Source: a virus
Reading direction: 5' to 3' (one strand)
Length of the DNA: 30,276 nucleotides
IMG/VR virus record: IMGVR_UViG_3300029319_000116
Span: 13,188 to 43,463 of that record
Part shown: in pieces, positions 3,549 to 27,185 of the stretch
Layout: each line of letters opens with the position of its first letter
Position numbering within the stretch: position 1 is the first letter of the stretch
The notes under the pieces: generated by a model
What the model was told of the DNA's origin: nothing
Databases searched by the model: none
The model's input: only the letters and a program-made list of their open reading frames with translations
Program-made: the position numbers and the translations under genes

Positions 3549-3556
3549 TAAATAGT
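3549..3556 (-). promoter_or_regulatory. ACTATTTA motif before the sheath gene
   Basis: Sense-strand GCACTATTTATTTAAG in the 86-base gap between the gp15 stop and the sheath ATG, 54 bases before the start. Nothing else stands out in this gap and I see no terminator hairpin. Candidate late promoter for the abundant sheath and tube. Confidence 0.4.
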
Positions 3557-6460: not shown

Positions 6461-8278
6461 TTATCCGAGCATGTCTTCACAGATAACAAGACCGTACATA
6501 TCAGGTCTTACCATTTCCTTGGCGTAGCGTGTCATAACACCCTTACGAGGTACGAAGTCCTCAACACCGAAGATGGTTGGAGTTACCTGAAGTGGTACAT
6601 ACGGAGCGTAAACATATCCGCTCTCAAGGAACGATCCACCTTTACGTCCAACAAGAACGAGATTACGTGGGAAGTAAGGATCCACATAAACGTCAAACTT
6701 CTTGCTCAAAGATCCAACATTGACTGCACCAACAGATCCGTTTGCATAATCGTTTCCGATGCTTGCGCGGAATCCAGCGGTGAACTCAAGAATGTTAGCA
6801 ACTTCTGGGGAACAAACAACGAAGTTAGCTCCACCACGAAGTGTCTTTCTGTGGATAGAAGCCGAAACATCATTAATAGTTTCCGCAAGAGTCTCATACC
6901 ATTCAGAAACAGTACCAGTGAAGTCAGCACCCAACAACGATTCGTTGTTTGCATTGCTGATTTGGCGACCGTTGTCTCTGTTTAAGAACTTACCCGGACG
7001 ACGTGACCAGTAAAGCTTGTCTGCTGTCGCGCCGTTAACGAGGTCTTCAAGAATCTCTCTGTCGATTTCAAGAGCAATCTGCTCAGAAAGAATGCTTGTA
7101 AGCTCAACTTCTGCATCAAGGTTGTGATAAGCGTTGAGATCTTGTCCCAATTCTGGAGTCCACTTAGCCTTGAGCTTCTTGGTCTTAGCAGTAACTGCAA
7201 TGGAATCAACTTTGATGTCGATCTCAGGAATCTGAGTTTCGTTTTCAAGCTGCCATTCTGTAGTACCTTTAACACCACCGAGAGCATCAGCAGTTGTGAA
7301 GTTATCAGTAACTGGGAAGTTAAGCAGGAAGGGATCAGTATCCCCGAAGAGTTGCTCGAAAGAGTTCTGCAAGTCGGCTGCTGCTTTTGCCTCAGTGTAG
7401 CCAGCTTGTCCAGCAGAGCCAGTAGTCACATAAACAACTCTGATCTTCAAATTAGTGTTTGCAGGGTCGTACTTGTCGCCACTAGAACCAGAGTGAATTG
7501 TAGTATGGCGGCGAAGCTGACGAGCGGTTTCTACAGCGGCGGCTCCCCTCTCAGTGAGTGGCGCAGAGCCCGAGAAAGCAACGAGGTTCAAAAGATCAGC
7601 CTGATTGTTTTGCAAATTGTTTTGATTCTTAAGGCTGAATGCAAGAACAGCGGAACCAGAAAGGTCTGGATCCCAGTTAACAAGCTCATCAATCTCGTAT
7701 GTTCCAGAACCAACAACACCAGCAACCACGTCATCATGCTCAACAATCCAGTTACCAGAACCAGTTGGGCTAGCATAGCCGTTGTTCAAGTTGTATGGAC
7801 CTTTGTCCGAGTTTGCTGGACCTACAGCACCAGCCAAGCTGGAATCATCAAGGTCAACTCCGTCTCTGATTCCCTTAGCGACTTTTCCGCCACCATAGAG
7901 AGAATCACCAACTTCATATCCAAGTCTACCAGCACCACCGTCTCCTACAGTAAAATCGAGGAAGAAGATGAGTCCTGATGGAAGGCTCATTGGCTGAACG
8001 CTTACGAGATCGTTAGCGATCAAATTACCGAATACACGGCGAACGATTGGAAATGCGACTGCTGAAAAGCCTTCAACATCTCCGGCAGCCATTGTGGATG
8101 CCTCACGGAGTAGTTCTTTTGCTTGGTTTTCAAGCAAACGAGCCATTCCGTCTTTTTTCTGGTCACTGTCAAGTCCCTCTAAAAGACCGGTCTTTTCCCA
8201 CTTGTTAAGTAGGGCTGCACCTTCTTTCTGGAGGTCACGATTAACAATGCCTTCTGTTAATTTATCTAAAACTGACAT
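6461..8278 (-). CDS. 23: Major capsid protein (gp23-like)
   Basis: 605 aa; T4 gp23 has 521 aa. Forms the hexamers of the head. Residues 62-105 (MAAGDVEGFSAVAFPIVRRV, then NLIANDLVSVQPM and SLPSGLIFFLDF) match the T4 segment around PAVMGMVRRAIPNLIAFDICGVQPM. A prohead protease site of the T4 type, LRE followed by A, lies at residues 57-60, close to the T4 cleavage position (after residue 65), so the first 59 residues are probably removed by gp21. The C-terminal third (VVCSPEVANILE, VYVDPYFPRNLVLVGRKG, GVMTRYAKEMVRPDMYGL) is also characteristic. Extra Gly/Asp/Ser-rich sequence around residues 115-300 explains the greater length. AAAGGAG precedes the ATG. Confidence 0.97.
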   Translation of the reverse strand: MSVLDKLTEGIVNRDLQKEGAALLNKWEKTGLLEGLDSDQKKDGMARLLENQAKELLREASTMAAGDVEGFSAVAFPIVRRVFGNLIANDLVSVQPMSLPSGLIFFLDFTVGDGGAGRLGYEVGDSLYGGGKVAKGIRDGVDLDDSSLAGAVGPANSDKGPYNLNNGYASPTGSGNWIVEHDDVVAGVVGSGTYEIDELVNWDPDLSGSAVLAFSLKNQNNLQNNQADLLNLVAFSGSAPLTERGAAAVETARQLRRHTTIHSGSSGDKYDPANTNLKIRVVYVTTGSAGQAGYTEAKAAADLQNSFEQLFGDTDPFLLNFPVTDNFTTADALGGVKGTTEWQLENETQIPEIDIKVDSIAVTAKTKKLKAKWTPELGQDLNAYHNLDAEVELTSILSEQIALEIDREILEDLVNGATADKLYWSRRPGKFLNRDNGRQISNANNESLLGADFTGTVSEWYETLAETINDVSASIHRKTLRGGANFVVCSPEVANILEFTAGFRASIGNDYANGSVGAVNVGSLSKKFDVYVDPYFPRNLVLVGRKGGSFLESGYVYAPYVPLQVTPTIFGVEDFVPRKGVMTRYAKEMVRPDMYGLVICEDMLG

Positions 8279-8299: not shown

Positions 8300-9331
8300 T
8301 TAGTTTAATCCAGCCAACCTACGCATTCTATTAATACGAGGATCTGCTGGGTTTTTAGCCTCTTTAGTTTGTGGTAACAAAGTAGATTTCCTACTGACCG
8401 CTTCGCTTAGTGTTTTCGGGGACTCTTTTTGAGTGCCACTCACCGTGCTTTGAAGGGTTTCAAAGATTACCTTAGCCTCTTCAACTGAGTTTGCATTTGA
8501 GATAGCTTCGACAAGTTTTGTTTTTTGTCGCCCATTCAACGAGTCGCTAGACAATGCTTCGTTAGTGTAAAGTAGCTTTGCGTTCTGAACGGAGGTTTCG
8601 TTCAAAGCGTCTTTTAACTTGAGAACAACGTCCTCAAAGTGTTTGGTTTTAGATTGAAAAGTTTGAAGCGCTTCTTGAAGCTCTTTCTTGTCTGCTTCAA
8701 GTGCTTGGACAGATTCTCTTAGTTTGCCTACTTCTTTAGCAACCTCGTCGGATGCTTCCTCTTCTTCATCAATATGTGCGTTGAGAGCTTCAGCCTCTTC
8801 GTAAGCCATATGCTTTTGTGTATCTGGCATTCCAAACCATCCAGATTTTTCTGGGCTGAAGTCAAGTGTGAGCTTTTCTGCTAGCTCTTCGATTTGTTTC
8901 TCGTCTAAATTAATTTCTTCGTCTTCAAATAAGCTGCTTAGATCAATCTCATCGGATTCTTTAAGTGCATCGTCGGTAGGTGCCTCTGGAGTTTCAAGCT
9001 CCTCTGCAAACTCGCCTCTATCTGTCATCTCTCCTGAGTCTGCCTCTTTAGCCATTTCTTGGTCCACAAGCTCCTCCAATTCTTCGAAATTCAATTCGAC
9101 GACTTGCTCTGGTCCTTCTTCAGGAGGGTTACTTACATCTGAAGATGCCATTGGAATATTGTCTGCCACTCCATCTGCTTCTTCTATAACCTCTTCTTGG
9201 TTAAGCATTGTATCAACTGCTTCTCTAATTTCCTGAGAATATTTCTCTATGATTGTTGACTCTGCGCTCTTAATAGCGGCTTCCTTAAGGGCTTTAGCAT
9301 CGACGATTGCTTGATCTAACATTGATGACAT
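8300..9331 (-). CDS. 22: Prohead core scaffold protein (gp22-like)
   Basis: 343 aa from the ATG at 9331 (MSSMLDQAIVDAK), chosen because TAGGAG lies 8 bases before it; a longer reading frame upstream lacks a ribosome binding site. The protein is very acidic and mostly helical, with a coiled coil near residues 195-245 (EVGKLRESVQALEADKKELQ). It ends in NRMRRLAGLN, a C-terminus typical of T4-family scaffolds. T4 gp22 (269 aa) forms the prohead core and is later degraded by gp21. The position immediately before gp23 agrees. Several (L/I)xE triplets are present that could be cut by the protease. Confidence 0.88.
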   Translation of the reverse strand: MSSMLDQAIVDAKALKEAAIKSAESTIIEKYSQEIREAVDTMLNQEEVIEEADGVADNIPMASSDVSNPPEEGPEQVVELNFEELEELVDQEMAKEADSGEMTDRGEFAEELETPEAPTDDALKESDEIDLSSLFEDEEINLDEKQIEELAEKLTLDFSPEKSGWFGMPDTQKHMAYEEAEALNAHIDEEEEASDEVAKEVGKLRESVQALEADKKELQEALQTFQSKTKHFEDVVLKLKDALNETSVQNAKLLYTNEALSSDSLNGRQKTKLVEAISNANSVEEAKVIFETLQSTVSGTQKESPKTLSEAVSRKSTLLPQTKEAKNPADPRINRMRRLAGLN

Positions 9332-9379
9332 TATATAATCTCCTAATATTTGGTCGCAAATAGACGTTTTGCGTCGTAG

Positions 9380-9387
9380 TAAATAGT
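9380..9387 (-). promoter_or_regulatory. ACTATTTA motif before the scaffold gene
   Basis: The sense strand reads ACAACTATTTACTACGA, 48 bases before the gp22 ATG. A small GACG/CGTC hairpin follows at about 9364-9376. This gap (9332-9426) contains no other feature I can support. A promoter here would drive gp22 and gp23 after the upstream fibre terminator. Confidence 0.4.
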
Positions 9388-9738: not shown

Positions 9739-12027
9739 TTACTTCTTGAGGAGTGCTTTCAATTCTTCGATCTGAACTTGTTGAGCCTTTACAGCCTCCA
9801 CGAGAACAGAAGTAAGTCTTGAGTAGTCAACCCCTTGTACGCCGTCTCCGCCAGTGTGAACTGCCTTTGGAACGACTTTCTGAACATCTTGAGCGATGAA
9901 ACCGAAGTCTCTTTCACCGGAATCTTTCCAAGTGAACTCAACACCGTTCAAAGACATAACAGCATCAAGAGCAGTGTTGCCCATAGAGGTAACATCAGAC
10001 TTGAGGCTTTCGTCTGAGTAAGTGACAAATGCAGCAGCCTTGATCTTGTTGATGTTATCACTACCGTTTGCAACTTCAATAGCGAAATCAGTGTTTTCAT
10101 CACCACCAAGAGACATAATAGTCTCTTGGCTTCCACTTTCATCTTTCTTGAATTGCAATTTGTTCTCAGCAGCAACATAGATCATCTCTTCGTTTGCAGC
10201 AGCACCGTGAACTCTAAGACCTGCTCCAGATCCATCCTGTCCTACAAAAACACCGCCGTCAAAGTTACCAGTACCATCTACACCGATGGATGCACCACCA
10301 GCACCAGCACCACCGCCAGTGCCAAAACCATTTGCAGTTAATGATGCTCGTAATCCATTGTTTGCGTAGAAGTTAATCTGATCTGCTGTCTCGAAGTCAA
10401 TCTTTGTTTGATCATCTTCACCGATTTTGATATCAGTTGCAAGAAGGGAGGTGACATTGGTCTGAGCAGCAGCCAAAGTCACAGCACCACCGTCAGCAAT
10501 GGATGCATCTCCGGAAACGTTTCCAAAGTAGTGGTTTTGAAGACTATCAACACCAACTTTTTTAAGAGTTCCACCATCGGAAATCATCAATTCGTCAGCA
10601 TCAACAATGTCAGCGTGGGCTAATTCTGTTTGACCAGAAATAACATTGTCGTTAAGCATTGAACCTTCAACAGCGTCAGCTTGAATAGTGGCAGCACCAC
10701 CAGCAGCAACTAAGACATCGCCAGAAACATTGCCGAAGATTGCATCTTCAAGGTTGGAGAAAGTAATTTTCTTTTCTGTTCCGTTGTCAGACACCAAGAA
10801 GTTATCTTGTGTCTGGTGAAGGCTAGCGTCACCCTTAGCAGTAAGCTCATCGATGTCGAGAGCGAGTGTTGCGATGCTGTTTATTCCACCAGTGAAGGTA
10901 AGACCAGTTCCAGCAACTGAACCAGAGAGACCAACTTTGTCACCGTCAAGAACAACAGATCCAGAAACTCCTACAGAAAGAACTCCAGAAGCAGCCGCAA
11001 GACCGTTACCAGCCATGTTACCGACAACATCAGAAAGTTGCTCTTTTTTAGTTTCGCCAGAAGCTCCGCCATCAAGGAAGAGAATGTAGTCATCTCCAAC
11101 TGCCAAAGCAGCTTCATCTACTAAAGCGCCAGAGTCTTTTGCAAGACTGTCAACACCGTATCTTTTGATTACTCCGCCATCGGAAAGCAACAACTCATCA
11201 GCAGCAGCGAGAGATCCCTGTGCCAATTCTGTTTGACCAGAAATAACATTGTCGTTAAGCATTGAACCCTCAACAGCGTCAGCAGCGATGGTTAAAGCAC
11301 CACCGTCAGCGACAGTTGCATCACCAGAAACATTTCCGTAGTAGTGGTTTTGAAGACTGTCAACGCCAACTCTCTTAAGAGTTCCGCCATCACTGATCAA
11401 AAACTCATCAGCGTCAGCAATGTCTGCGTGAGCCAACTCATCTTGTCCAGAAATAACATTGTCGTTAAGCATTCCCTCTTCAACAGCACCAGCACCGATG
11501 GTTAAAGCACCACCAGCAGCAACTGTAGCATCACCAGAAACATCAGCGAATACAGCATCACGAACAACGCTGAAGTCTACTCTCTTGAGAGCGCCACCGT
11601 CGTTAATCAACAACTCGTCGGCATCATCTAGATCGCCAGTCATTGCAGTCTGGTTAGTAATAGCTGCAACACCAAGAGACAAATCACCGCCAGCAGCAAC
11701 TGTAGCATCACCAGAAATGTTTCCAAAGATTGCATCTTCGAGGTTAGAGAAAGTAATTTTCTTTTCTGTTCCGTTATCAGAAAAGACGAAGTGGTCTTGT
11801 GTTTGATGAAGACCAGTTCCACCGAGCGCATCAAATGCATCGATGTCAAGAGACTTTGCAACGTCGGTGATCACACCACCTTCGTTTTGCATGAAAAGTC
11901 TAGCAGAGCCAACAGCACCAGAAGCGAAGAGGTAGAGACCTCCAGCAGGGGCTTCGGCATTTGCAGATCCAGAATTGTTCTGGAGAGAAATAAATTTCCC
12001 GTATTCAGATAGAGAAATATTAGCCAT
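9739..12027 (-). CDS. Repeat-built tail fibre / virion spike with S74 chaperone domain
   Basis: 762 aa. The last 92 residues are an intramolecular chaperone of the peptidase S74 type: AFVTYSDESLKSDV, then FTWKDSGERDFGFIAQDVQK, then a C-terminal coiled coil (LVEAVKAQQVQIEELKALL). In this family the domain trimerises fibres and then cuts itself off before the Ser of the SD..LK motif, here Ser671 with Lys676. The body is made of repeats of about 70-80 residues containing NGTEKKITFSNLEDAIFGN, VSGDATVA(A/D)GGALTI, GSMLNDNVISGQTELA and ADE(L/F)(L/M)ISDGGTLK. GGGAGG lies before the ATG. The gene is flanked by terminators on both sides, so it is probably its own transcription unit. Its position inside the head gene cluster is unusual for a fibre; a head fibre or whisker-like role is also possible. 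Confidence 0.85.
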   Translation of the reverse strand: MANISLSEYGKFISLQNNSGSANAEAPAGGLYLFASGAVGSARLFMQNEGGVITDVAKSLDIDAFDALGGTGLHQTQDHFVFSDNGTEKKITFSNLEDAIFGNISGDATVAAGGDLSLGVAAITNQTAMTGDLDDADELLINDGGALKRVDFSVVRDAVFADVSGDATVAAGGALTIGAGAVEEGMLNDNVISGQDELAHADIADADEFLISDGGTLKRVGVDSLQNHYYGNVSGDATVADGGALTIAADAVEGSMLNDNVISGQTELAQGSLAAADELLLSDGGVIKRYGVDSLAKDSGALVDEAALAVGDDYILFLDGGASGETKKEQLSDVVGNMAGNGLAAASGVLSVGVSGSVVLDGDKVGLSGSVAGTGLTFTGGINSIATLALDIDELTAKGDASLHQTQDNFLVSDNGTEKKITFSNLEDAIFGNVSGDVLVAAGGAATIQADAVEGSMLNDNVISGQTELAHADIVDADELMISDGGTLKKVGVDSLQNHYFGNVSGDASIADGGAVTLAAAQTNVTSLLATDIKIGEDDQTKIDFETADQINFYANNGLRASLTANGFGTGGGAGAGGASIGVDGTGNFDGGVFVGQDGSGAGLRVHGAAANEEMIYVAAENKLQFKKDESGSQETIMSLGGDENTDFAIEVANGSDNINKIKAAAFVTYSDESLKSDVTSMGNTALDAVMSLNGVEFTWKDSGERDFGFIAQDVQKVVPKAVHTGGDGVQGVDYSRLTSVLVEAVKAQQVQIEELKALLKK
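10501..11779. repeat. Internal DNA repeats of the fibre gene
   Basis: The coding repeats are still visible as DNA. The block at 10622-10680 matches 11225-11283 over 59 bases with one difference, and a third partial copy lies at 11447-11473. The block at 10741-10789 matches 11731-11779 with three differences. The block around 10527-10556 (GTAGTGGTTTTGAAGACT and on) recurs from 11339. Such near-identity suggests recent duplication or continuing recombination that could change fibre length. Confidence 0.85.
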
Positions 12028-12973: not shown

Positions 12974-13390
12974 TTACTTAATTAGCTGTCTCCAAGCATT
13001 GACGCCGCCGAGCAAACTCGAAATATCAACTCCTGCATCATTTGGGTCAACACCTTCTAGTGCAGAGGAAGGCGAGGGGGATGATGAGGGTGTTCCTGCT
13101 TTTTTCAACGGCGTAGTGCCCTCAAACAAATCAACTCCCCCATATGAATCTTTCCCTATAGCGTCTAACATTTTTTTTCTAGTTTCAGCTAGTTTTTGCT
13201 TTTGCTTTTCTGCTGCCTCTAAACTAGCCTGTTGTGTGAAGGTCTGCTGAGTAGCCGTTGGCTGCTGAACTGCTTGCGTTTGCCCCACTGCCTTTACTAC
13301 TTCTGAAATGACACTTTTGAGAACCCCCTCTTCTACGAGGACTTCTTTTACGCTCTCCTTAATCATTTCTTTAAATTCGCTTTTCTTCAT
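12974..13390 (-). CDS. Small helical, low-complexity protein of the head module (138 aa)
   Basis: The N-terminal third is a charged helix (MKKSEFKEMIKESVKEVLVE), the middle is Gln/Ala/Thr-rich (QAVQQPTATQQTFTQQ) with a short coiled coil, and the C-terminal third is Pro/Ser/Gly-rich. I recognise no family. It follows gp21 with coupled spacing (AAAGGAT of the gp21 end serves as ribosome binding site). T4-like phages carry small prohead core proteins in this neighbourhood, so a core or internal head role is possible but unproven. Confidence 0.7.
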   Translation of the reverse strand: MKKSEFKEMIKESVKEVLVEEGVLKSVISEVVKAVGQTQAVQQPTATQQTFTQQASLEAAEKQKQKLAETRKKMLDAIGKDSYGGVDLFEGTTPLKKAGTPSSSPSPSSALEGVDPNDAGVDISSLLGGVNAWRQLIK

Positions 13391-13391
13391 T

Positions 13392-13988
13392 TTAATCCTT
13401 TACAATATCGTTTAGAAGTCTATTAATCTTATCCGCCTTAGTCCAAACATTCGGCTCTTTGTTCTCTTTCATCATAAAAGCACCAGTTGTAGATGGTTCT
13501 GATACCATATCAAAACAAATTAGCTGAAAGTCGTCGTTTACTCTTGCGGCACCATTACTTTCATCAACAGTGCCAAGACCGCGAGAGGAAATGCCAACTT
13601 GACAGCCACCCTCAACGAGGGCTCTTAGGGTTTTACCTGCTGGTGTTTCAAGCACTTTAATTTTGCCCATCACATCCTTGCCCTCAAACCACACGTCTGT
13701 CACTAGGTGAGAAGCATTGGCGAGATTAACGATAGACGATTCTGGATGGTCTAGTTCTCCTAGTGCTCTTTTTTCCTTGACAAGTTTCTTGTAATTCTCC
13801 ACTTCTCTCTCTAAAACTCGCATAGGATAAACTCTGCCATTTCCGTTTTGCGCTTCTGCCCTCTGCATCACGCCGGAAAGAATGAGCCCACCATTTGCGA
13901 CATAACGCTTTTCCTCTTCCGTTAGAAGATCTTGACATGTCCCACCTTCACATAGTTGGTAAAATTCTGTTAATAACATTCTTGACAT
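13392..13988 (-). CDS. 21: Prohead core protease (gp21-like, peptidase S77)
   Basis: 198 aa; T4 gp21 has 212 aa. This serine protease matures the prohead by cutting scaffold, capsid and internal proteins after (L/I)xE. Conserved landmarks are NGNGRVYPMRVLEREV near 48-63, GELDHP with the probable catalytic His81, and VGISSRGLGTV with the probable catalytic Ser at 134 or 135. The fold is the herpesvirus-type assembly protease fold. AAAGGA precedes the ATG. Its specificity matters for this window: LRE in gp23 and the (L/I)xE ends of six N-terminal tags in the accessory block are all suitable sites. Confidence 0.95.
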   Translation of the reverse strand: MSRMLLTEFYQLCEGGTCQDLLTEEEKRYVANGGLILSGVMQRAEAQNGNGRVYPMRVLEREVENYKKLVKEKRALGELDHPESSIVNLANASHLVTDVWFEGKDVMGKIKVLETPAGKTLRALVEGGCQVGISSRGLGTVDESNGAARVNDDFQLICFDMVSEPSTTGAFMMKENKEPNVWTKADKINRLLNDIVKD

Positions 13989-20245: not shown

Positions 20246-21142
20246 TTATACATCTAATTTGTCTATTTTTTCAGTCAAAAGATCTATTTTCTTTTGCTGC
20301 TCCTTTACTGCTTCAACCAAAAACGAAATAATTCTTGTATAGTCCATTGTGTTTGCATATTGCGGATCTTGACTCCACTCAACAATCTCAGGTATTACTT
20401 TCCCAACATCTTCTGCGATAAAGCCAAAGTCTTTCTTCCCTGTATCTTTCCAATTATAAGAAACGCCTTGCAACTTACTGATTGTTCCAACGGCAGACTC
20501 AAGCGGCTGAACATCCTTCTTGTATCTTATAGAGGAATATGAAACAAAAGCATTTGCCTTTACTTTTCCAGAGGCGTTGCTTGTGTCTGGGAGGGTTATA
20601 GCATGGGTTGCCTCTCTTGTCCCTATCGAAAGAAATTTATCTATGTGAATAGCTGAACCCGATAGGATTAGCCCCGAAGTTCCAGAGCCAGATACCACTA
20701 AGACCCCACTATCTGCGCTGTCGAAAAATAATTTTGCCTCATTGTTTGGACCAAAATTAAAAGCGGATGCATCACCTTCGCTGCCAACAAATTGAATTGC
20801 TCCTCCAATCTTTAGGGGTGACGCCCCTTCCAGTGTTCCATCTATCTGGATTGTGGTCCCAGACAAAGCAATGCCCTTCGCCGAGCCGGAAATTGTCATA
20901 AACTCATCAGCGCTTCGATAGTGTACATATGAGTCACCAGAGTCTCCAAAAAATATCTTTCTTCCATCCGCCACTTTCATATCAGAACCATCAAAAGTGA
21001 ACTGTGGAATTCCGCCAAGGGCTCCGTTATTGTTAAATTGTAACTGTGTGTTAGAGCCGCCTGCTTCTCCTGCCGGTGTGGCCTCTTGCTGTTGTCTGAT
21101 TAGGGCTAAGAGCCTGCTATGACTATAATTGCCTATCGCCAT
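20246..21142 (-). CDS. Small virion/fibre protein with S74 chaperone domain
   Basis: 298 aa from the ATG at 21142 (MAIGNYSHSR), which overlaps the stop of the preceding gene as TAATG; a longer frame upstream lies inside that gene. The N-terminal part has a Gly/Ser-rich beta pattern typical of fibre shafts (STQLQFNNNGALGGIPQFTF, SGSGTSGLILSGSAI). The last 96 residues are a peptidase S74 chaperone: AFVSYSSIRYKKDV, YNWKDTGKKDFGFIAEDVGK, and a C-terminal coiled coil. The probable self-cleavage Ser is residue 203 with Lys208; the usual SD is SS here. The domain is clearly related to that of the 762 aa fibre. Probably a trimeric short fibre or appendage. Confidence 0.82.
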   Translation of the reverse strand: MAIGNYSHSRLLALIRQQQEATPAGEAGGSNTQLQFNNNGALGGIPQFTFDGSDMKVADGRKIFFGDSGDSYVHYRSADEFMTISGSAKGIALSGTTIQIDGTLEGASPLKIGGAIQFVGSEGDASAFNFGPNNEAKLFFDSADSGVLVVSGSGTSGLILSGSAIHIDKFLSIGTREATHAITLPDTSNASGKVKANAFVSYSSIRYKKDVQPLESAVGTISKLQGVSYNWKDTGKKDFGFIAEDVGKVIPEIVEWSQDPQYANTMDYTRIISFLVEAVKEQQKKIDLLTEKIDKLDV

Positions 21143-21579
21143 TACTTTGTGGTCCCCATAGCAACTACAAAGATGCTTGTTGTTAGGATTATTCCGCCGA
21201 CAACTCCACCAGTAAGCCACCAGAGAGTATAGTCGTTGGGTCTATCTAATGCTAAATCTTGTAGTCGCCCGATTTCTTCATTTTTTATTTCTAATATCTG
21301 CGCTAATCTCTCTTCGGAGCCAGCCAACTTTGCATTGGTTATTTTTAGATCTAACTCTAGCTTTGCTCTGAGTAGTTCTATCTCCCTATCCATTTCCAGC
21401 CTACACTCTTCTGCCGTGTATTTCTGATCTGTTAGAACTTTGGCTGCTGCTTTGGCGTCCATTAGGACGCCAGTAAAGGGTGCTTGTTGCCCTTTCTGTA
21501 TTTCAGTTATAACTCCCTCTTGCGCCCAAGCAGGGAAAGCAAAGAGTATAACTAAAAATATGGATAGTAGTTGTTTCAT
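21142..21579 (-). CDS. Exported coiled-coil protein with C-terminal membrane anchor
   Basis: 145 aa. The N-terminal signal peptide (MKQLLSIFLVILFAFPAWAQ) has a likely signal peptidase I site after AWA. Residues 60-110 form a coiled coil (EMDREIELLRAKLELDLKI and on), and residues 118-141 form a membrane helix (LWWLTGGVVGGIILTTSIFV). The mature protein would thus span the periplasm from a membrane anchor. Such topology is reminiscent of spanins, but there is no lipobox cysteine and the pattern is not canonical. The start overlaps the previous stop as ATGA. Role in lysis or envelope change is a guess. Confidence 0.78.
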   Translation of the reverse strand: MKQLLSIFLVILFAFPAWAQEGVITEIQKGQQAPFTGVLMDAKAAAKVLTDQKYTAEECRLEMDREIELLRAKLELDLKITNAKLAGSEERLAQILEIKNEEIGRLQDLALDRPNDYTLWWLTGGVVGGIILTTSIFVVAMGTTK

Positions 21580-21944
21580 CGCCCGTCCCTCACATAAAAA
21601 TAATGGATATCCTCGGCTGCATCATAAATCATATATACATCGTTTGCTTCATCATAAAGATAATGAGGCTCATCTACCGTCAGCATGTCGTCTACTTTGG
21701 CTTGAAAATCTTCAGCAGATATTTCAGAAGCATTTTCTTCTGCTTGGGCGAATTCGGTTGCATCTGTGTATGGAAGTGAGTCTATCATACAGTAACCACC
21801 TTCATCAAAGTTTTTACAGTTGCCCACAAGAGAATAACTCTCGTTCTCGTTTGACAGCCGATCATCAAGCTCTTTTTCATTGCCCAACTCAATATTTATA
21901 CCTTCTTTTAAATACTGTCGCCAGTTTTCAAGCAGTTGTTTCAT
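21576..21944 (-). CDS. Unknown acidic protein with capsid-targeting-like N-terminus (122 aa)
   Basis: Begins MKQLLENWRQYLKEG, the tag shared by six proteins in this block, with the putative gp21 site LKE before Gly15. The rest is acidic; the C-terminus has a repeated Tyr/Asp/Ala beta-hairpin look (HYLYDEANDVYMIYDAAED). No family recognised. AAGGGA from the end of the upstream gene is the ribosome binding site. If the tag works as in T4 internal proteins, about 108 residues would remain in the head after cleavage. Confidence 0.78.
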   Translation of the reverse strand: MKQLLENWRQYLKEGINIELGNEKELDDRLSNENESYSLVGNCKNFDEGGYCMIDSLPYTDATEFAQAEENASEISAEDFQAKVDDMLTVDEPHYLYDEANDVYMIYDAAEDIHYFYVRDGR

Positions 21945-21947
21945 TTG

Positions 21948-22772
21948 TTAATCCCTTCTCAAATATGGGCTATATACATGCTCTCTAGTTCGACTCGGGT
22001 GTCCGTCATCGTAATAAAAATGCTTTTTCATGATGTCTATCGTAAGATCTTCTGGTTTGATCGGATATGGAACCTCTGAATATTTACGCTTTTTTGGATC
22101 CCAAGTGCCATCCAACCGATCCCAACCAAATATGTCTTCTACCATATCCTCAAAATCGCTTTTTGCGTCGTCCCTATCATCTCTGTTGGTGCTAGACATT
22201 CCGTCCTGTATTTGCTTTATTAATCCCTCTAGTGTCCCAAGCACAACTGGCTCGTATGTATCTGGGTTGAAAATGGCTGTCGATTCTATGTCCACCGTGC
22301 TTATATAAGGAGGAATATTCCCATCAAAGTGAACAGCATCGTAATCTTTCGCTATGCCCTCCCAGTTAAGAAAACCTTTTTTTGATCCCTCGCCGTACTT
22401 TTTTAACAACTCTTCGTAGTTTGAACCATCAATATGAAGTATTTTTGCCGATACTGGTTTTAATAATATTGCTCCGTGTGCTGTTTTAAAATTTCTTTTG
22501 CCACCACCCATTTCTAAATTGTGTTCATCCCATTCAGAGGTGTAATTGCCTTTACCGGTTGGGATCGCTGTGCTTGTCCAAAGCACTCCATCTGGTTCAT
22601 TTCTGTCTTTATGATTTTTAACATTAGTATCAGCATTATACTGCAAATCGCCACCTTCGTAAGTGACGAGATAATGTGCATTAGGGTTGTGAAAAGTATG
22701 AAGTTGCATGTCTTGACCAGTTTTTAACTGCTCATTTATGAACCTTTTCCAATTTTCAAGTATTAGTTTCAT
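21948..22772 (-). CDS. Tagged protein with possible ADP-ribosyltransferase-like fold (274 aa)
   Basis: Begins MKLILENWKRFINEQ with the putative protease site INE before Gln15. After the tag: HYLVTYEGGDL (33-43), GVLWTSTAI (62-70), Trp81, AILLKPVSAKILHIDG (101-116), WEGIAKDYDAVHFDG (137-151) and DIESTAIFNPD (161-171). The spacing of an aromatic strand, a (S/T)-T-S-like strand and a late Glu strand faintly recalls ADP-ribosyltransferases, and I remember uncharacterised bacterial proteins with the LW.S / KYDA / NPD pattern. T4 packages the ADP-ribosyltransferase Alt. This is a hypothesis, not an assignment. The start overlaps the stop of the Cys-rich mini-gene (TAATG). Confidence 0.75.
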   Translation of the reverse strand: MKLILENWKRFINEQLKTGQDMQLHTFHNPNAHYLVTYEGGDLQYNADTNVKNHKDRNEPDGVLWTSTAIPTGKGNYTSEWDEHNLEMGGGKRNFKTAHGAILLKPVSAKILHIDGSNYEELLKKYGEGSKKGFLNWEGIAKDYDAVHFDGNIPPYISTVDIESTAIFNPDTYEPVVLGTLEGLIKQIQDGMSSTNRDDRDDAKSDFEDMVEDIFGWDRLDGTWDPKKRKYSEVPYPIKPEDLTIDIMKKHFYYDDGHPSRTREHVYSPYLRRD

Positions 22773-22867
22773 TACTGTTCCTTACAACAGCAAGTACAGC
22801 AGCCGCAACAGCAGCAGCAGTGTGCGTCGTTAAACAAGTTCTTTAATCTGTGTAATACCTTTTTCAT
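22772..22867 (-). CDS. Cysteine-rich 31-residue mini-protein
   Basis: Encodes MKKVLHRLKNLFNDAH followed by CCCCCGCCTCCCKEQ: ten cysteines within twelve positions, after a basic amphipathic helix. GCGGAGG lies 8 bases before the ATG, inside the last codons of the upstream gene, and the stop overlaps the next start (TAATG), so the frame is well placed in the operon. No family recognised. A poly-cysteine tail could bind metals or an iron-sulfur cluster, or could anchor to a membrane through modification. All of these are inference. Confidence 0.72.
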   Translation of the reverse strand: MKKVLHRLKNLFNDAHCCCCCGCCTCCCKEQ

Positions 22868-22870
22868 TTT

Positions 22871-23272
22871 TTATTCCTCCGCTTTTACGCAGTTTCTGTA
22901 TGTCTTGCCATACATCTTTTTTGTTTTTCTCTTTGGATGAGTCTTGTAGCCTTTTTGGCAGCGCTCTTCCAAGTCATTTTCCTCTGGTTCTGGGAATCTT
23001 TCTTGGTCGTATGGGGCGTCTTCTTGTCTAAAGCGTTCGGCATCTTGCAAATGCTTAAGGGCTGCGGCTGCAAGGTCTCCTCCCGCATCTTGGTGCATAT
23101 AGACCATTGCTTCTCCGCTTGATGGATTATACTCGACAATATACGAGTCGTCGTTTTCCATTATCATTTCAAAGTATTCTAAATCGCCAGCAGGCGTCAT
23201 CTTTCTTACAGTAAGATCCTCTCTTTCATTTTCGTTGAGAAACTCTTTCCATTCATTCAACATCTTTTTCAT
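22871..23272 (-). CDS. Tagged protein with basic Cys/Lys-rich C-terminus (133 aa)
   Basis: I chose the ATG at 23272 (MKKMLNEWKEFLNEN) because AGAGG is 9 bases before it; the ATG 6 bases upstream is too close. This start also aligns exactly with the N-terminal tag of its neighbours, with putative protease site LNE before Asn15. The middle is acidic. The end (residues 105-130) is strongly basic: CQKGYKTHPKRKTKKMYGK followed by TYRNCVK, a motif I recall at the ends of other marine phage proteins and possibly nucleic acid binding. The gene begins inside the previous one (20-base overlap). Confidence 0.78.
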   Translation of the reverse strand: MKKMLNEWKEFLNENEREDLTVRKMTPAGDLEYFEMIMENDDSYIVEYNPSSGEAMVYMHQDAGGDLAAAALKHLQDAERFRQEDAPYDQERFPEPEENDLEERCQKGYKTHPKRKTKKMYGKTYRNCVKAEE

Positions 23273-23918
23273 TTTCATTTTCCTCTGGCTCTGGCTCTTC
23301 GCCTTTCTTTACCAGTTCTTTATCTACAATATCATAGCCTTCCACAACTCCTACATTTTCGTAGTCAAAACCGGGAAGTATGGCAATCTTTTGTTCTGGG
23401 AACTCTCCATTTACAATAAACGAACAAGCCTGACCTACCACTTCTGTAAATAGTGCTGGGTATGCCGCTGGTGGCACGGTCTTTATGTGTCTATTGTAAG
23501 AAGCGATCTCGCCTCTGCCATCAAAGTTTGTGTTGCCCTGAATATGGGTCATATAATCATGGACTGCCCTAAACTTCTGGTTTGTTTCCGGGTCGAATAC
23601 ATCGTGTTCAGAGTCAAGTGTAGAAATTTTTAAGACTTTGTTTTGATTAACATCTTGCCTTAACTCATCAGCAGTTTCATATGGGTGATCATCTATAAAT
23701 TCAATATTCACCTTTTTGCTAATTTTATCAAACATATTATTGATAAAAGGAATCATAGCTTCAAACGAATCAACGGCCTCTTTCTGATATGGGGGAGCAG
23801 CAGCATAAGCCTCTGCAACCAACTGGCAATACTTATCCCAACCGTTTGGTCCGGGCTTTAGCATTAGGGCTTCATTTAGGGCGACGAACTTTCGCCATTC
23901 TGCTAGAATCTCTTTCAT
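23253..23918 (-). CDS. Tagged protein with HDxxxH / RGE / TEVxGQ motifs (221 aa)
   Basis: Begins MKEILAEWRKFVALNEA; the tag is two residues longer than in its neighbours, with putative protease site LNE at 14-16. The core matches a phage protein family I remember from diverse large phages: FRAVHDYMTHIQ (117-128; His120, Asp121, His125), FDGRGEIASYNRH (132-144), FTEVVGQACSFI (157-168) and EQKIAILPGFDYENVG (175-190). The conserved His/Asp/Glu set suggests a metal-dependent enzyme, but I know of no proven activity. The end is a Glu-rich tail. It overlaps the upstream gene as ATGA. Confidence 0.8.
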   Translation of the reverse strand: MKEILAEWRKFVALNEALMLKPGPNGWDKYCQLVAEAYAAAPPYQKEAVDSFEAMIPFINNMFDKISKKVNIEFIDDHPYETADELRQDVNQNKVLKISTLDSEHDVFDPETNQKFRAVHDYMTHIQGNTNFDGRGEIASYNRHIKTVPPAAYPALFTEVVGQACSFIVNGEFPEQKIAILPGFDYENVGVVEGYDIVDKELVKKGEEPEPEENENEKDVE

Positions 23919-24337
23919 TCTTCTCCACTCTCCACATAGGTGACCCCAAACCTTTCTGCTAGCAACCTAGACAAAGTAGCAGGATCTTCCCTGTATTTTG
24001 ATACGAGCTTATTGACCTCTGCCCTTTTTTCTTCGGAGAGTTCTTCTTTTCTTTCCTCGTATTTCTTTTCTATCTTGGCGATGATTTGCTGGTATTTATC
24101 CAAAGCCTCATCACGCAAAGCTATCTCTTCTGCATGAGAATCATTAAGTGTGTCGATTTCTTTCTGGTGGGTGTCTTTTTCTACCTCTAGGACTTCTTTG
24201 ATATTATCAACCTTGCCTTTAAAGTAGACCCACACACAGATTGCATAGACCGCTCCGGCAAAAACTTGCCAATACTTCTTTATAAAAGCCCAAGTCTTTG
24301 ATGCCCAGACTTTAGCAACTAACCAAAACTCTATCAT
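23915..24337 (-). CDS. Membrane-anchored coiled-coil protein, Rz/i-spanin-like topology
   Basis: 140 aa from the ATG at 24337, which overlaps the holin-like gene stop (ATGA); two upstream in-frame ATGs lie inside that gene. One N-terminal membrane helix (residues 24-44, WQVFAGAVYAICVWVYF) is followed by a long coiled coil (48-115) and a short C-terminal domain (ATLSRLLAERFGVTYVE). This layout, directly after a holin-like gene, resembles inner-membrane spanins (lambda Rz). No outer-membrane partner or endolysin is seen nearby, so the lysis role is tentative. Confidence 0.72.
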   Translation of the reverse strand: MIEFWLVAKVWASKTWAFIKKYWQVFAGAVYAICVWVYFKGKVDNIKEVLEVEKDTHQKEIDTLNDSHAEEIALRDEALDKYQQIIAKIEKKYEERKEELSEEKRAEVNKLVSKYREDPATLSRLLAERFGVTYVESGEE

Positions 24338-24537
24338 TTGCCGTGCTTCCATTGTGTAGCAAGATCTGTTAAGCCTTGCATTCCTATATATGCTAACGAA
24401 ATAGCAACCCAATCACTAGAGTCTAGTGGTGTTCGCTCTGATAGCATTAGCCCCGTGGCTGTTAACCATACCATAAGTTTCCTAGAAACTAACTTTACTA
24501 ATAGTCTATCCAATCCGTGTTTAATAGCAGACATCAT
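24334..24537 (-). CDS. Small holin-like membrane protein
   Basis: 67 aa from the ATG at 24537 (MMSAIKHGLD), placed 5 bases after GGAGG; the next codon is also ATG and is equally possible. A basic N-terminus is followed by two hydrophobic segments (KLMVWLTATGLML and WVAISLAYIGMQGLTDLA) joined by a polar turn, ending in WKHGK. Size and topology fit class II holins or similar phage membrane proteins. The following gene has spanin-like topology. No sequence-level family match is claimed. Confidence 0.65.
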   Translation of the reverse strand: MMSAIKHGLDRLLVKLVSRKLMVWLTATGLMLSERTPLDSSDWVAISLAYIGMQGLTDLATQWKHGK

Positions 24538-24538
24538 A

Positions 24539-24733
24539 TTATCCTCCATCCGGTGTCTTAAATTTTAGGTTTTCTACTGGGGAGGCTGATATATTCTCCC
24601 AGTCTGGGTGTAGTTCTTGGAATATTTTTAGTATCTTTTCTTCATCATACCATTTGCGACTTGCTTCAATATGGAATATATGCTTTGTTTTGTCCAAATA
24701 ATACTTAACTACCCAGTAATCTTGGGATTTCAT
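24539..24733 (-). CDS. Unknown small protein (64 aa)
   Basis: Begins MKSQDYWVVKYYLDKTKHIF; one beta hairpin, a helix (YDEEKILKIFQELHPDW) and a short tail. Soluble, no recognised family. TTAGGAGG, overlapping the stop of the preceding mini-gene, is a strong ribosome binding site. Its last codons supply the ribosome binding site of the holin-like gene. Confidence 0.68.
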   Translation of the reverse strand: MKSQDYWVVKYYLDKTKHIFHIEASRKWYDEEKILKIFQELHPDWENISASPVENLKFKTPDGG

Positions 24734-24741
24734 CTAGCCTC

Positions 24742-24900
24742 CTAACCTAACAAATCTGTGCTTTCAAAAAAAGCCAACGAAATAAACACCCCTGAAAGTA
24801 TCCAAAGTGCTGTGTCCATTGGCTCTAACACAACGAAACCAAAGCAGAAGAAAATCAAAGCCTTTAATAAATTAGACTGAAAGAATCTTTTTGGTTCCAT
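24742..24900 (-). CDS. Small two-helix membrane protein (52 aa)
   Basis: Begins MEPKRFFQSNLLKALIFFCF and ends FFESTDLLG. Two hydrophobic stretches (about residues 11-25 and 31-45) suggest a helical hairpin. The stop codon overlaps the ribosome binding site of the next gene, which supports it as a real coding unit. There is no Shine-Dalgarno sequence before the ATG; an ACTATTTA motif lies only 4 bases upstream. If that motif is a promoter, this start would be used only on longer transcripts, or an internal start would be used. A holin or antiholin role is possible. Confidence 0.6.
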   Translation of the reverse strand: MEPKRFFQSNLLKALIFFCFGFVVLEPMDTALWILSGVFISLAFFESTDLLG

Positions 24901-24904
24901 ATTG

Positions 24905-24912
24905 TAAATAGT
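24905..24912 (-). promoter_or_regulatory. ACTATTTA motif between the exported protein and the membrane mini-gene
   Basis: The sense strand reads CCAACTATTTACAATATGG in the 30-base gap after the exported protein's stop. It is one of seven intergenic copies and would start a transcript covering the small membrane genes and the tagged block. Confidence 0.4.
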
Positions 24913-24930
24913 TGGAATTTGTAAATGATA

Positions 24931-25167
24931 CTATTTGAAGGTTCTTTCTTTAGAAGATTCTTCGATCTCTGAAATGAAGGACTTTTTAAGTTTTAGCAGT
25001 CTATCAAACTTTACTTTGTTTTTGCTGTCTGTGTAAAGAGCAGTTGGCTTTTTAATTTCACCATCAATTACTTGCTCGCCAAAATCATAAAACTTAGACT
25101 TCGGCTGTTGTGCCAAGGCAGTTGATGCAAAAAGTGTGATTGCTACGACAACGAGAAACTTTTTCAT
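24931..25167 (-). CDS. Small exported protein behind a host-type promoter (78 aa)
   Basis: Signal peptide MKKFLVVVAITLFASTALAQ with a probable cut after ALA leaves a mature protein of about 59 residues. The mature part (FGEQVIDGEIKKPTALY, then VKFDRLLKLKKSFISEIEES) resembles, from memory, small proteins of Myxococcota and related groups with an (E)GE..(K/R)P ... F..L..L+..F..E...S pattern; this is uncertain. AGGAGG lies 6 bases before the ATG. It has a near-perfect sigma-70 promoter of its own, unlike the virion genes, so it may be expressed early or be a morон-type accessory gene. Confidence 0.8.
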   Translation of the reverse strand: MKKFLVVVAITLFASTALAQQPKSKFYDFGEQVIDGEIKKPTALYTDSKNKVKFDRLLKLKKSFISEIEESSKERTFK

Positions 25168-25199
25168 GGTGACCTCCTAAGTCATTAAGTTATGTATAT

Positions 25200-25228
25200 A
25201 ATATACACCACAATAAATCACTTGTCAA
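25200..25228 (-). promoter_or_regulatory. Sigma-70-type promoter
   Basis: The sense strand has TTGACA (25228-25223), a 17-base spacer and TATATT (25205-25200). The -35 box is perfect and the -10 box has one change from TATAAT. It overlaps the stop codon of the upstream gene and faces the exported 78-residue protein, whose start is 33 bases beyond the -10 box. Confidence 0.85.
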
Positions 25229-26196
25229 GCCATTTGTGAAGTTTTTTGCGTAACATTTTGTGGAGAAACTCTTGCTATCTGATCTAATACTTTACCGATG
25301 TCTTCTAATTTTTGAATATTCAATATGCGTATAATCTCATGCCTGTCTTTATTTCTTGGATTCTCTAGATAGCTCTTTAAGTGTCTTAGCACTATTCTAC
25401 CTTCATCATCAAAAAACAACTCTCTATTAACGCCTTGAAGTTCAGTTTTGATCACTTTTAATTTTGCATATAACTCAATTGGCTTTTTAAGATAATCATA
25501 AAATTTTTCTTGTTCTATACCAGTATCTTTTTGCTGTTTAGCTATTTTTGATAGATCAGACTTTAACATTGTAGAAAATGGCACTTCTAATGTAAGATCA
25601 ATAGCATGTGCAAACTCTTCTAGTAAAATATTATTAATTGTATTAACATTGGGTATGCCGCTCTGATCCTCTATCGCTGAATACGGGTTTATGCCAACAA
25701 ATGGAGGGAGTGCCCCAAATCTTTTATCATAAGCATAAAACCCCAACAAATTACGATTATTAGCCCAAGATTGAGCAGCATATTCTACACCGTCTTTCCA
25801 CATATTCTCTGCCTCCTTTGAGGCTAAATTCACAACCGGCAGTTCCTCCAGCATTTTCTTAATCTCTGGAAGAAGCTCATTATTATAATATTGCAAAATT
25901 TCTTCATCTGGTGTTTTTTGGTTGACATGTTTTGTCCACTTGCCGGATTTAACAAGTCTAACAAAAGACGATTCGCCAGCGACAGTTTTGAAGGTATTAT
26001 AAATTTTATTTTTCATAGCATCAGATATTTTTTTTAAATTATAATTTTCTGCTATCTTTTTTATTTGCTGCCATTTAGATGGGGATTTAATGTTAAACTT
26101 TTCTCTTACTATATCATGAAGAGAAGCATGTGATTCTTCTTTTTTATCACTTTGCTCACTTATGAATTGTTTCCAATTATCTAGTATTTCTTTCAT
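25225..26196 (-). CDS. Tagged zincin-like protein B (323 aa)
   Basis: Begins MKEILDNWKQFISEQ; putative gp21 site ISE before Gln15. It is a diverged paralogue of the upstream gene. Shared blocks: INPY/INPF near 169, LLEEFAHAIDLTL (191-203) against FYEELAHAVDLQL, YLKKPIELYAKLKVIK against YMRDPKELYAKLRTLK, and a C-terminal block NIQKLEDIGKVLDQIARV against DIKKVDDLKKVIDQLVKV. The centre resembles a zincin metalloprotease, HExxH with a downstream Glu, but the first His is Glu (Glu193-Glu194-x-x-His197, Glu241). It may be an altered or inactive protease or bind another metal. The start overlaps the upstream stop (ATGA). Both paralogues end in MA. Confidence 0.82.
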   Translation of the reverse strand: MKEILDNWKQFISEQSDKKEESHASLHDIVREKFNIKSPSKWQQIKKIAENYNLKKISDAMKNKIYNTFKTVAGESSFVRLVKSGKWTKHVNQKTPDEEILQYYNNELLPEIKKMLEELPVVNLASKEAENMWKDGVEYAAQSWANNRNLLGFYAYDKRFGALPPFVGINPYSAIEDQSGIPNVNTINNILLEEFAHAIDLTLEVPFSTMLKSDLSKIAKQQKDTGIEQEKFYDYLKKPIELYAKLKVIKTELQGVNRELFFDDEGRIVLRHLKSYLENPRNKDRHEIIRILNIQKLEDIGKVLDQIARVSPQNVTQKTSQMA

Positions 26197-27170
26197 GCCA
26201 TTTTTGATCCCTTTGACATCTTTTTATCAACCTTTACCAATTGGTCTATAACTTTCTTAAGATCATCTACTTTTTTAATATCAAAAAAATCTAATAAAAA
26301 TCCTGCCTCGGTAGGGTCATCAAATCCTTTCTCTAGAAAATCTTTTTTAATTGTTCCATCTGGGTTGAACGCCTTTTCGCCGTATTCCTTTTCATAATAT
26401 GCCTTAAGTGTTCTCAATTTTGCATATAACTCTTTTGGGTCTCTCATATATTTTATGTATTCGGGGAAGGGCGCATATCCCAACTTCTTTAGATCGGCAA
26501 CGGGCGTAAATAGTTTTTGTAACTCTGGTCCAAAAACATCAGATAACTTGCTCGGCTTTCCTTTGAACATGTCTCCTGCCGTTCTAAAATCTAATTGCAA
26601 ATCAACAGCATGTGCAAGCTCTTCATAGAATACTAACTGCAACATGTTGGGCGAGCCCTGCAATTCTTTGTGGAATGGATTAATAACGATTATTTGTTCG
26701 TCCCAAAAATAAGTGGCAACATCCCCGGTCTCATATACTTGCATCGCTTCAGCTGCCGGTACATCTGGGTGATAAAAAGCATAGATAGGGACATTATTTA
26801 TTATTTTTCTAATCTCTGGTAATAGCTTCTCTTTATAAAATCGTCTCACTTCTTTTTCTGGTGTGAAAAAGTCTATGAATCCTGTGGTGCCTTTCTTTTT
26901 CCGGGAATGCGCGATAAAAGATTTTATTGCTCTTTCGCTAGCAAAGTCTTTAAAAAAATCGGCTTTTTTATCATTCCCAATTGCCTGAACTTCTTCCGCT
27001 CTGCGTATCCATTCGAGGGGGCTGCTAATCCCCTCATTTTTGTAGTGATCATAAATTTTGATTGGTATTGAGCCTATTCCGGGCAAATTGACTGTCTCCT
27101 CGTTGCCCCACTTGCGGCTTTGCCTTTGTTCTGCTAAAAACTGATTCCAGTTGTCTAGTATTTCTTTCAT
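26193..27170 (-). CDS. Tagged zincin-like protein A (325 aa)
   Basis: Begins MKEILDNWNQFLAEQ; putative gp21 site LAE before Gln15. The first 17 bases of both paralogues are identical, so duplication of the tag or of the whole gene is likely. The putative active region is FYEELAHAVD (181-190) with Glu183, Glu184 and His187, plus Glu247 in DPKELYAKL. Upstream helices contain FYKEKLLPEIRKIINNVPIY. No signal peptide or membrane segment. The start has no Shine-Dalgarno sequence; an ACTATTTA motif lies 7 bases before it. It follows the recombination nuclease gene by 20 bases. Confidence 0.82.
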   Translation of the reverse strand: MKEILDNWNQFLAEQRQSRKWGNEETVNLPGIGSIPIKIYDHYKNEGISSPLEWIRRAEEVQAIGNDKKADFFKDFASERAIKSFIAHSRKKKGTTGFIDFFTPEKEVRRFYKEKLLPEIRKIINNVPIYAFYHPDVPAAEAMQVYETGDVATYFWDEQIIVINPFHKELQGSPNMLQLVFYEELAHAVDLQLDFRTAGDMFKGKPSKLSDVFGPELQKLFTPVADLKKLGYAPFPEYIKYMRDPKELYAKLRTLKAYYEKEYGEKAFNPDGTIKKDFLEKGFDDPTEAGFLLDFFDIKKVDDLKKVIDQLVKVDKKMSKGSKMA

Positions 27171-27177
27171 AACATTC

Positions 27178-27185
27178 TAAATAGT
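27178..27185 (-). promoter_or_regulatory. ACTATTTA motif before zincin-like gene A
   Basis: The sense strand reads AAGACTATTTAGAATG in the 20-base gap after the gp46/47 stop. It would separate expression of the tagged virion candidates from the recombination gene. Confidence 0.4.

Follow-up and report, generated by a model that had tools for sequence, protein, structure and literature searches.

A tag shared by six proteins of an uncultured marine T4-like virus resembles an enlarged T4 capsid-targeting propeptide

The internal proteins (IPs) of phage T4, namely IPI, IPII and IPIII, begin with a capsid-targeting sequence (CTS), a propeptide of 10-19 residues borne by otherwise unrelated proteins, several per genome, and cut by the prohead protease gp21 after L/I-x-E (PMC9026906). 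Suppressor mutagenesis of IPIII showed that targeting needs residues 4 and 7, and processing residues 8 and 10 (PMC9026906), whilst T4 Ip1-3 are injected and inhibit type IV restriction enzymes (PMC12373910). A similar arrangement is found in a stretch of 30,276 nucleotides (hereafter the window), positions 13,188-43,463 of the 43,463-base IMG/VR record IMGVR_UViG_3300029319_000116, whose source is an uncultured marine T4-like virus. Here, six open reading frames (ORFs), all on the minus strand and flanked by the terminase region and by gp46/47, the gene of the recombination nuclease, share an N-terminal tag. It is very probably a propeptide that targets the capsid and is then cleaved off, which would make the system an enlarged form of that of the T4 internal proteins.

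Two further systems stand close to this one. T4 Alt, an ADP-ribosyltransferase packaged in the head and injected, parallels what we predict here in being an enzyme packaged once its N-terminal propeptide (given as MELITELFDE in the T4 record) has been removed; unlike the tag, it has its own N-terminus plus C-terminal processing (PMC9026906), and no homologue of Alt was shown among the tagged proteins. The inner-head ejection proteins of phiKZ and SPN3US also carry a propeptide that is cut by a gp21 homologue after a motif ending in E, and form an injected payload, as the tagged proteins may do; however, their propeptides are mostly longer than 100 residues and the motif is A-x-E or S-x-E (PMC5694885). 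The tagged ORFs of the window, scored with a position-specific profile trained on the tags of other viral contigs (the window being left out), are these:

21576..21944, minus strand: tagged protein 1, 122 amino acids (aa); tag 1 MKQLLENWRQYLKE at 21903..21944, minus strand, 39.7 bits, final LKE
21948..22772, minus strand: tagged protein 2, 274 aa; tag 2 MKLILENWKRFINE at 22731..22772, minus strand, 40.7 bits
22871..23272, minus strand: tagged protein 3, 133 aa; tag 3 MKKMLNEWKEFLNE at 23231..23272, minus strand, 15.2 bits
23253..23918, minus strand: tagged protein 4, 221 aa, phrog_3170-like domain (E=8e-26); tag 4 MKEILAEWRKFVALNE at 23871..23918, minus strand, 10.2 bits, cleavage motif shifted to residue 16
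25225..26196, minus strand: tagged protein 5, 323 aa, paralogue of protein 6; tag 5 MKEILDNWKQFISE at 26155..26196, minus strand, 22.3 bits
26193..27170, minus strand: tagged protein 6, 325 aa; tag 6 MKEILDNWNQFLAE at 27129..27170, minus strand, 23.0 bits

An earlier note on this DNA had described these tags at the starts 21944, 22772, 23272, 23918, 26196 and 27170, and both coordinates and peptides proved correct, as did its statement that each ends in (L/I)xE at residue 14, or at 16 in one case (6/6: at residue 14 LKE, INE, LNE, ISE or LAE, and for the 23918 start LNE at residue 16). It also held that only the last two products are paralogous; indeed, proteins 5 and 6 are 28% identical and have no detectable homology to the other four. 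The observation is, however, larger than was first reported. Six window tags score 10.2-40.7 bits, against -9.6 for the next-best of 690 window starts and 4.8 for the top scorer among 6,602 starts from unrelated viral contigs drawn at random, and a degenerate DNA pattern of the tag (consensus MKLLxENWRKFLNE) matches the parent record only at the six places, with no match for a reversed control pattern. In IMG/VR, the 42-base degenerate pattern matches at least 120 stretches, and a permuted pattern with the same codons reordered matches none. The GTDB genomes (257 Gb) hold a single match, on a viral contig in a metagenome-assembled genome of Flavobacteriaceae, where the start of gp21 lies ~400 bp downstream. 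A tblastn search of the tag against cultured phages gave nothing at E up to 10, with a query so short that imperfect copies could be missed.

A collection drawn from terminase relatives, tag-pattern loci and six large genome records yielded 250 non-redundant tagged proteins, which fall into 143 families after tag removal (no BLASTP link at 1e-5; more sensitive methods would join some of them). Near-complete records of 172-203 kb have 6-10 tagged ORFs each, a range found in all six large genomes; one weak match in contig G015 is probably spurious. With one protein per family aligned, conservation reaches at least 90% only at M1, K2, E6, W8 and E14, the pattern that unrelated proteins with a common leader should show. 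The paralogy of two of the six window proteins could hint at a functionless relic of gene duplication, or the tags could be thought a product of chance, but both ideas are barely credible, and we rejected them on the permuted-pattern result (0 against at least 120 matches) and the 143 unlinked families; the 6-10 tagged genes in every large genome argue the same way.

The resemblance to T4 lies in the last seven residues of the tag, W-x-x-F-L-x-E, which align without a gap to Y-Q-E-F-I-A-E of IPII and IPIII (N-terminus MKTYQEFIAE in the T4 record), an aromatic-x-x-F-(L/I)-x-E core that in both cases occurs with an S77 protease in the same genome. Counting back from E, T4 residues Y4, F7, I8 and E10 correspond to tag residues W8, F11 (F/Y), L12 (L/I/V) and E14. 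Among 136 unique training tags, W8 is kept in 133, F/Y11 in 136, L/I/V12 in 130 and E14 in 136, in a set gathered with a pattern already favouring these residues. The tag could instead address a site outside the virion, such as the membrane, the replisome or a transcription complex, with the LxE incidental. A weak helix prediction makes it a short amphipathic N-terminal helix, the form of many localisation signals. We regard this as very unlikely, however, as the W, F, L and E of the tag fall on the residues through which the T4 CTS acts, and as the behaviour of the LxE motif, described below, speaks against it.

T4-like leaders of the form MK(T/S)FxxF(L/I)xE also occur on several different proteins in single-cell marine Kyanoviridae (cyanophage) records (L254:32221, L254:23064, L255:2059, L257:30187, L258:36767). 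They include intermediate tag forms such as MKTFKEFLEE, MKSFSQFLTE and MKSFLNFISE, and the proteins bearing them are candidate internal proteins of cyanophages, going by these leaders.

When tags were re-collected on residues 2-11 only, from loci chosen without the tag pattern, 73/76 had [LIVM]xE ending at residues 13-18, as compared with 5, 4, 6 and 16 of 76 in downstream windows. Fourteen of these lack the motif at residue 14, and 11/14 have it at 15-18 instead, so that LxE shifts as a unit with its spacing, which an incidental motif in a non-virion signal would not explain. The protein-4 family offers a close view of this drift: in nine aligned sequences E is kept throughout and I, L or M occupies P3, whilst the distance from W to E and the residues preceding E vary (cut motifs FVALNE, FIALNE, YLITE, FLMNE, YLLTE, FLLTE and FVMSE).

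Homologous domains, moreover, exchange their leaders at this E (predicted cut shown as /). HAD phosphatases occur as MKLLLENWRKFINE/SKLRVFDFDDT, with the long tag ending in FINE/, and as MLKKWKQFLSE/SKLRIFDFDDT; NUDIX proteins have either the long tag (...YLKE/DKDIDSVVKV) or MKYTWNRFLTE/GELKTVGIVV, MSIKSNWNTFLTE/KELKTVG or MKFKQWNQYLTE/GELKTVG, and the short forms on these HAD and NUDIX homologues have T4 length and spacing. A 67%-identical domain follows the long tag in one protein (...FINE/NEQTEED...) and a different leader, also ending in LxE, in another (MKITKTQLKQIIKEEISKVLSE/GEYDID...), and one domain is also found untagged, as MGGNVF... where the tagged form reads E/GGNVF.... Swaps at this very point are to be expected of a cleavable module, and exchange for other N-termini ending in LxE is a further point against a non-virion address.

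A second recurrent leader, MK(I/L)TKxxLxxIIKEEL, was seen at 137 distinct N-termini in loci of the clade (for example L183:959, L164 and L020:6846). LxE follows it in 104/137, against 20-23 in downstream windows; 387 kb of random viral DNA contain no copy of it, and some homologous domains carry it where others have the first tag. We therefore lean, if only narrowly, towards a modular code for import into the head, in which at least two interchangeable cleavable addresses, the W-x-x-F-L-x-E tag (in its long and T4-length forms) and MKITxxxLxxIIKEEL...LxE, would serve well over 100 effector families packed in the virion and exchanged, cassette-like, at the gp21 cut; the second address is like the N-terminus of a core-type protein adjoining gp21. 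This kind of system is already known, but we found no description of the extended tag, the breadth of its cargo or the exchangeable second leader in the open-licence literature searched.

Two other N-termini were noticed along the way. One, LL(T/S/N)E-x-x-(I/V)RRFMKLANIGAL, recurs about once per large genome (L260, L275, L285, L292, L299). The other belongs to the cultured Flavobacterium phage immuto (NC_055915), in which gp21 is present and the window-type tag absent; several immuto proteins (L250:1803, L252:3806, 17631, 18632) share another leader, M(E)NFDLKKFLVENKLT, which likewise has F-L-x-E.

The head and tail genes of the window include the terminase gp17, the portal gp20, gp21, gp22, gp23 and gp18; gp21 and gp23 were named through Pfam, gp17, gp18 and gp20 through T4 homology, and gp22 through its position. 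Those that bear on processing, with a promoter-like motif, are:

13392..13988, minus strand: gp21 prohead protease (Peptidase_S77), Pfam PF03420 E=1.2e-33, phrog_207 E=4e-54
12974..13390, minus strand: small core-type protein adjoining gp21, gp68-like by position only
8300..9334, minus strand: acidic coiled protein before gp23, putative gp22 scaffold by position only
6461..8278, minus strand: gp23 major capsid protein, Pfam PF07068 E=1.6e-75
8102..8110, minus strand: predicted gp21 site of gp23, residues 57-59 LRE (LLRE-59/A)
27178..27184, minus strand: late-promoter-like CTATTTA directly upstream of tagged gene 6

These assignments bear out a further claim, that the virus encodes gp21 and a gp23 with an LRE site; LL[RK]E stands at the expected place of gp23 in almost all clade relatives listed. 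The N-terminus of gp21 itself reads MSRMLLTE, that of the core-type protein (MKKSEFKEMIKESVKEVLVEEG) is similar to the second tag type, and the 8300..9334 protein matched no family. Across 40 tagged contigs, S77 was found in 13 and gp23 in 11, and all 10 contigs longer than 115 kb have both. Two tagged contigs that lack gp21 (G017, 97 kb, and G024, 112 kb) are incomplete and contain the clade's terminase and portal; in another, G007, the tags occupy the same positions as in G022, whose gp21 lies beyond the point where G007 ends. A tag common in phages devoid of a gp21-type protease was what the earlier note thought would refute its reading; we looked for a tagged virus without such a protease and found none.

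A late-type motif in the window also hints at late expression. CTATTTA precedes gp22 (9380-9386), gp18 (3549-3555) and many tagged genes, and it is strongly biased towards the sense strand, with 10 sense sites against 1 antisense in the window, and 20-47 against 1-11 in six related genomes. Its usual full form is ACTATTTA, seen in the window at 27184, 24911, 14214, 12131, 9386 and 3555. From this distribution, CTATTTA is probably the late promoter of the clade, in place of T4 TATAAATA. The T4 TATAAATA promoters were also considered and set aside, as they have no strand bias here. Late-type promoters on tagged genes are a last point against a non-virion address.

Several points weigh against a T4-type propeptide. 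The tag is usually 14 residues long, with W for Y, and its first seven residues (the MKLLLEN extension) have no T4 counterpart; V stands at P3 in ~10% of tags, and small residues are not favoured just behind the cut, where E, G, Q, S and A are commonest. T4 IPs are small and basic (isoelectric point, pI, 9.0-9.7), unlike the mature parts here, which are mostly acidic (median pI 5.0, 18% above 7) and many of them enzyme-like, spread over far more families; a basic mature part is, however, typical of the T4 examples and outside the definition of a CTS. The counts are not phylogenetically independent, and the clade is known from sequence alone, without a cultured host. Finally, shared ancestry confounds the co-occurrence with gp21: every placeable tagged contig belongs to one T4-like clade, so that the gp21 linkage amounts to consistency and is no independent test. 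We argue it from clade membership and not from enrichment, because the background viral contigs, drawn with a random 16-mer, included too few long enough for a fair gp21 rate.

Even so, capsid targeting and gp21 cleavage, as first proposed in the earlier note, are well supported in silico by the match to T4 residues, the co-drift of [LIVM]xE, tag exchange at the cut, the unlinked families, confinement to T4-like viruses with gp21 and gp23, and late-type promoters shared with head and tail genes. That the tagged proteins are packaged, cut within the virion and injected is our inference, as is whatever activity a given payload may have. On late expression, the amphipathic tag, chiefly through W8 and F/Y11, would draw a protein into the assembling prohead core; gp21 would then cut after (L/I/V)-x-E, freeing the mature protein into the head lumen, and the freed proteins would probably be expelled with the DNA into a new host. 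The precedents of T4 Ip1-3 and Alt make injection likely.

What such a payload might do can be glimpsed in the related viruses, where Pfam matches across the tagged families include Zeta toxin/AAA kinases, SAM lyase, DUF192, M23 peptidase, SET, NUDIX, protein kinase, C5 DNA methylase, dual-specificity phosphatase, LigT phosphoesterase, ParB and nucleotidyltransferase domains, none of them in more than two families and some with weak E-values; most of the 143 families had no Pfam match. The assignable mature parts thus appear to be nucleotide, nucleic-acid, protein-modifying and cell-wall enzymes, a mix as expected of a payload for takeover and counter-defence. It is improbable, on the other hand, that the tag is a docking peptide for structural or scaffold parts of the prohead core or virion, with the LxE cut optional and no injection. 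One tagged family of ~810 aa (10 members, several encoded near gp23) could indeed be a structural core protein, but SAM lyase, NUDIX, methylase and kinases among 143 unlinked families would be odd as structural parts, and the cleavage motif is constrained separately.

If the tag is a capsid-targeting propeptide, the CTS principle, known from a handful of small basic proteins, would extend to a general system of cargo. The proteins that a phage injects are normally learned only via proteomics of the cultured phage; with the tag, the proteins that uncultured phages are predicted to deliver from the virion could be catalogued from sequence alone. As T4 Ip1-3 proved to be restriction inhibitors, the tagged families make a candidate list for early counter-defence or takeover.

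Mycobacteriophage homologues of protein 4 are alignable only from residue 31-34 onward, and its AlphaFold model (predicted local distance difference test, pLDDT, 76.7) matched BFVD entries at E 2.5e-10 and weaker, viral proteins annotated as polyvalent-associated, with no fold match in the PDB; the predicted fold is thus one that also occurs in domains of the polyvalent proteins of phages, for which injection has been predicted (PMC5512222). The predicted fold, and a mixed effector payload predicted to be injected, recall the polyvalent proteins of Iyer et al. 2017, but unlike those giant multidomain proteins, protein 4 is a single domain with a CTS.

The mature part of protein 1 is acidic (12.4 kDa) and matched no Pfam or PHROG family. 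Protein 2 is possibly ADP-ribosyltransferase-like, judged by eye. Its search for relatives returned tag matches only; its sole homologue, in L199, came from a separate scan and is likewise tagged (32% identity), and phmmer searches of protein 2 and two tagged relatives against the PDB gave no match. Protein 3 has homologues with the window-type tag in L007 and the second tag type in L020; an in-frame ATG lies two codons upstream of its start, at 23278 (MKMKKML...), a doublet also present in L007, and the Shine-Dalgarno spacing is better for 23272. For protein 6, AlphaFold (three sequences) gave a low-confidence model (pLDDT 46).

The paralogues at 25225-27170 keep EE(L/F)AHA(V/I)D (EExAHAxD), which is like a zinc-peptidase helix with Glu replacing the first His. 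Elsewhere in the window, fibre-like proteins at 9739-12027 and 20246-21220 end, by eye, in a C-terminal stretch like an S74-type intramolecular chaperone (DESLKSDVTSMGNTALDAVMSLNGVEFTWKDSGERDFGFIAQDV; SIRYKKDVQPLESAVGTISKLQGVSYNWKDTGKKDFGFIAEDV).

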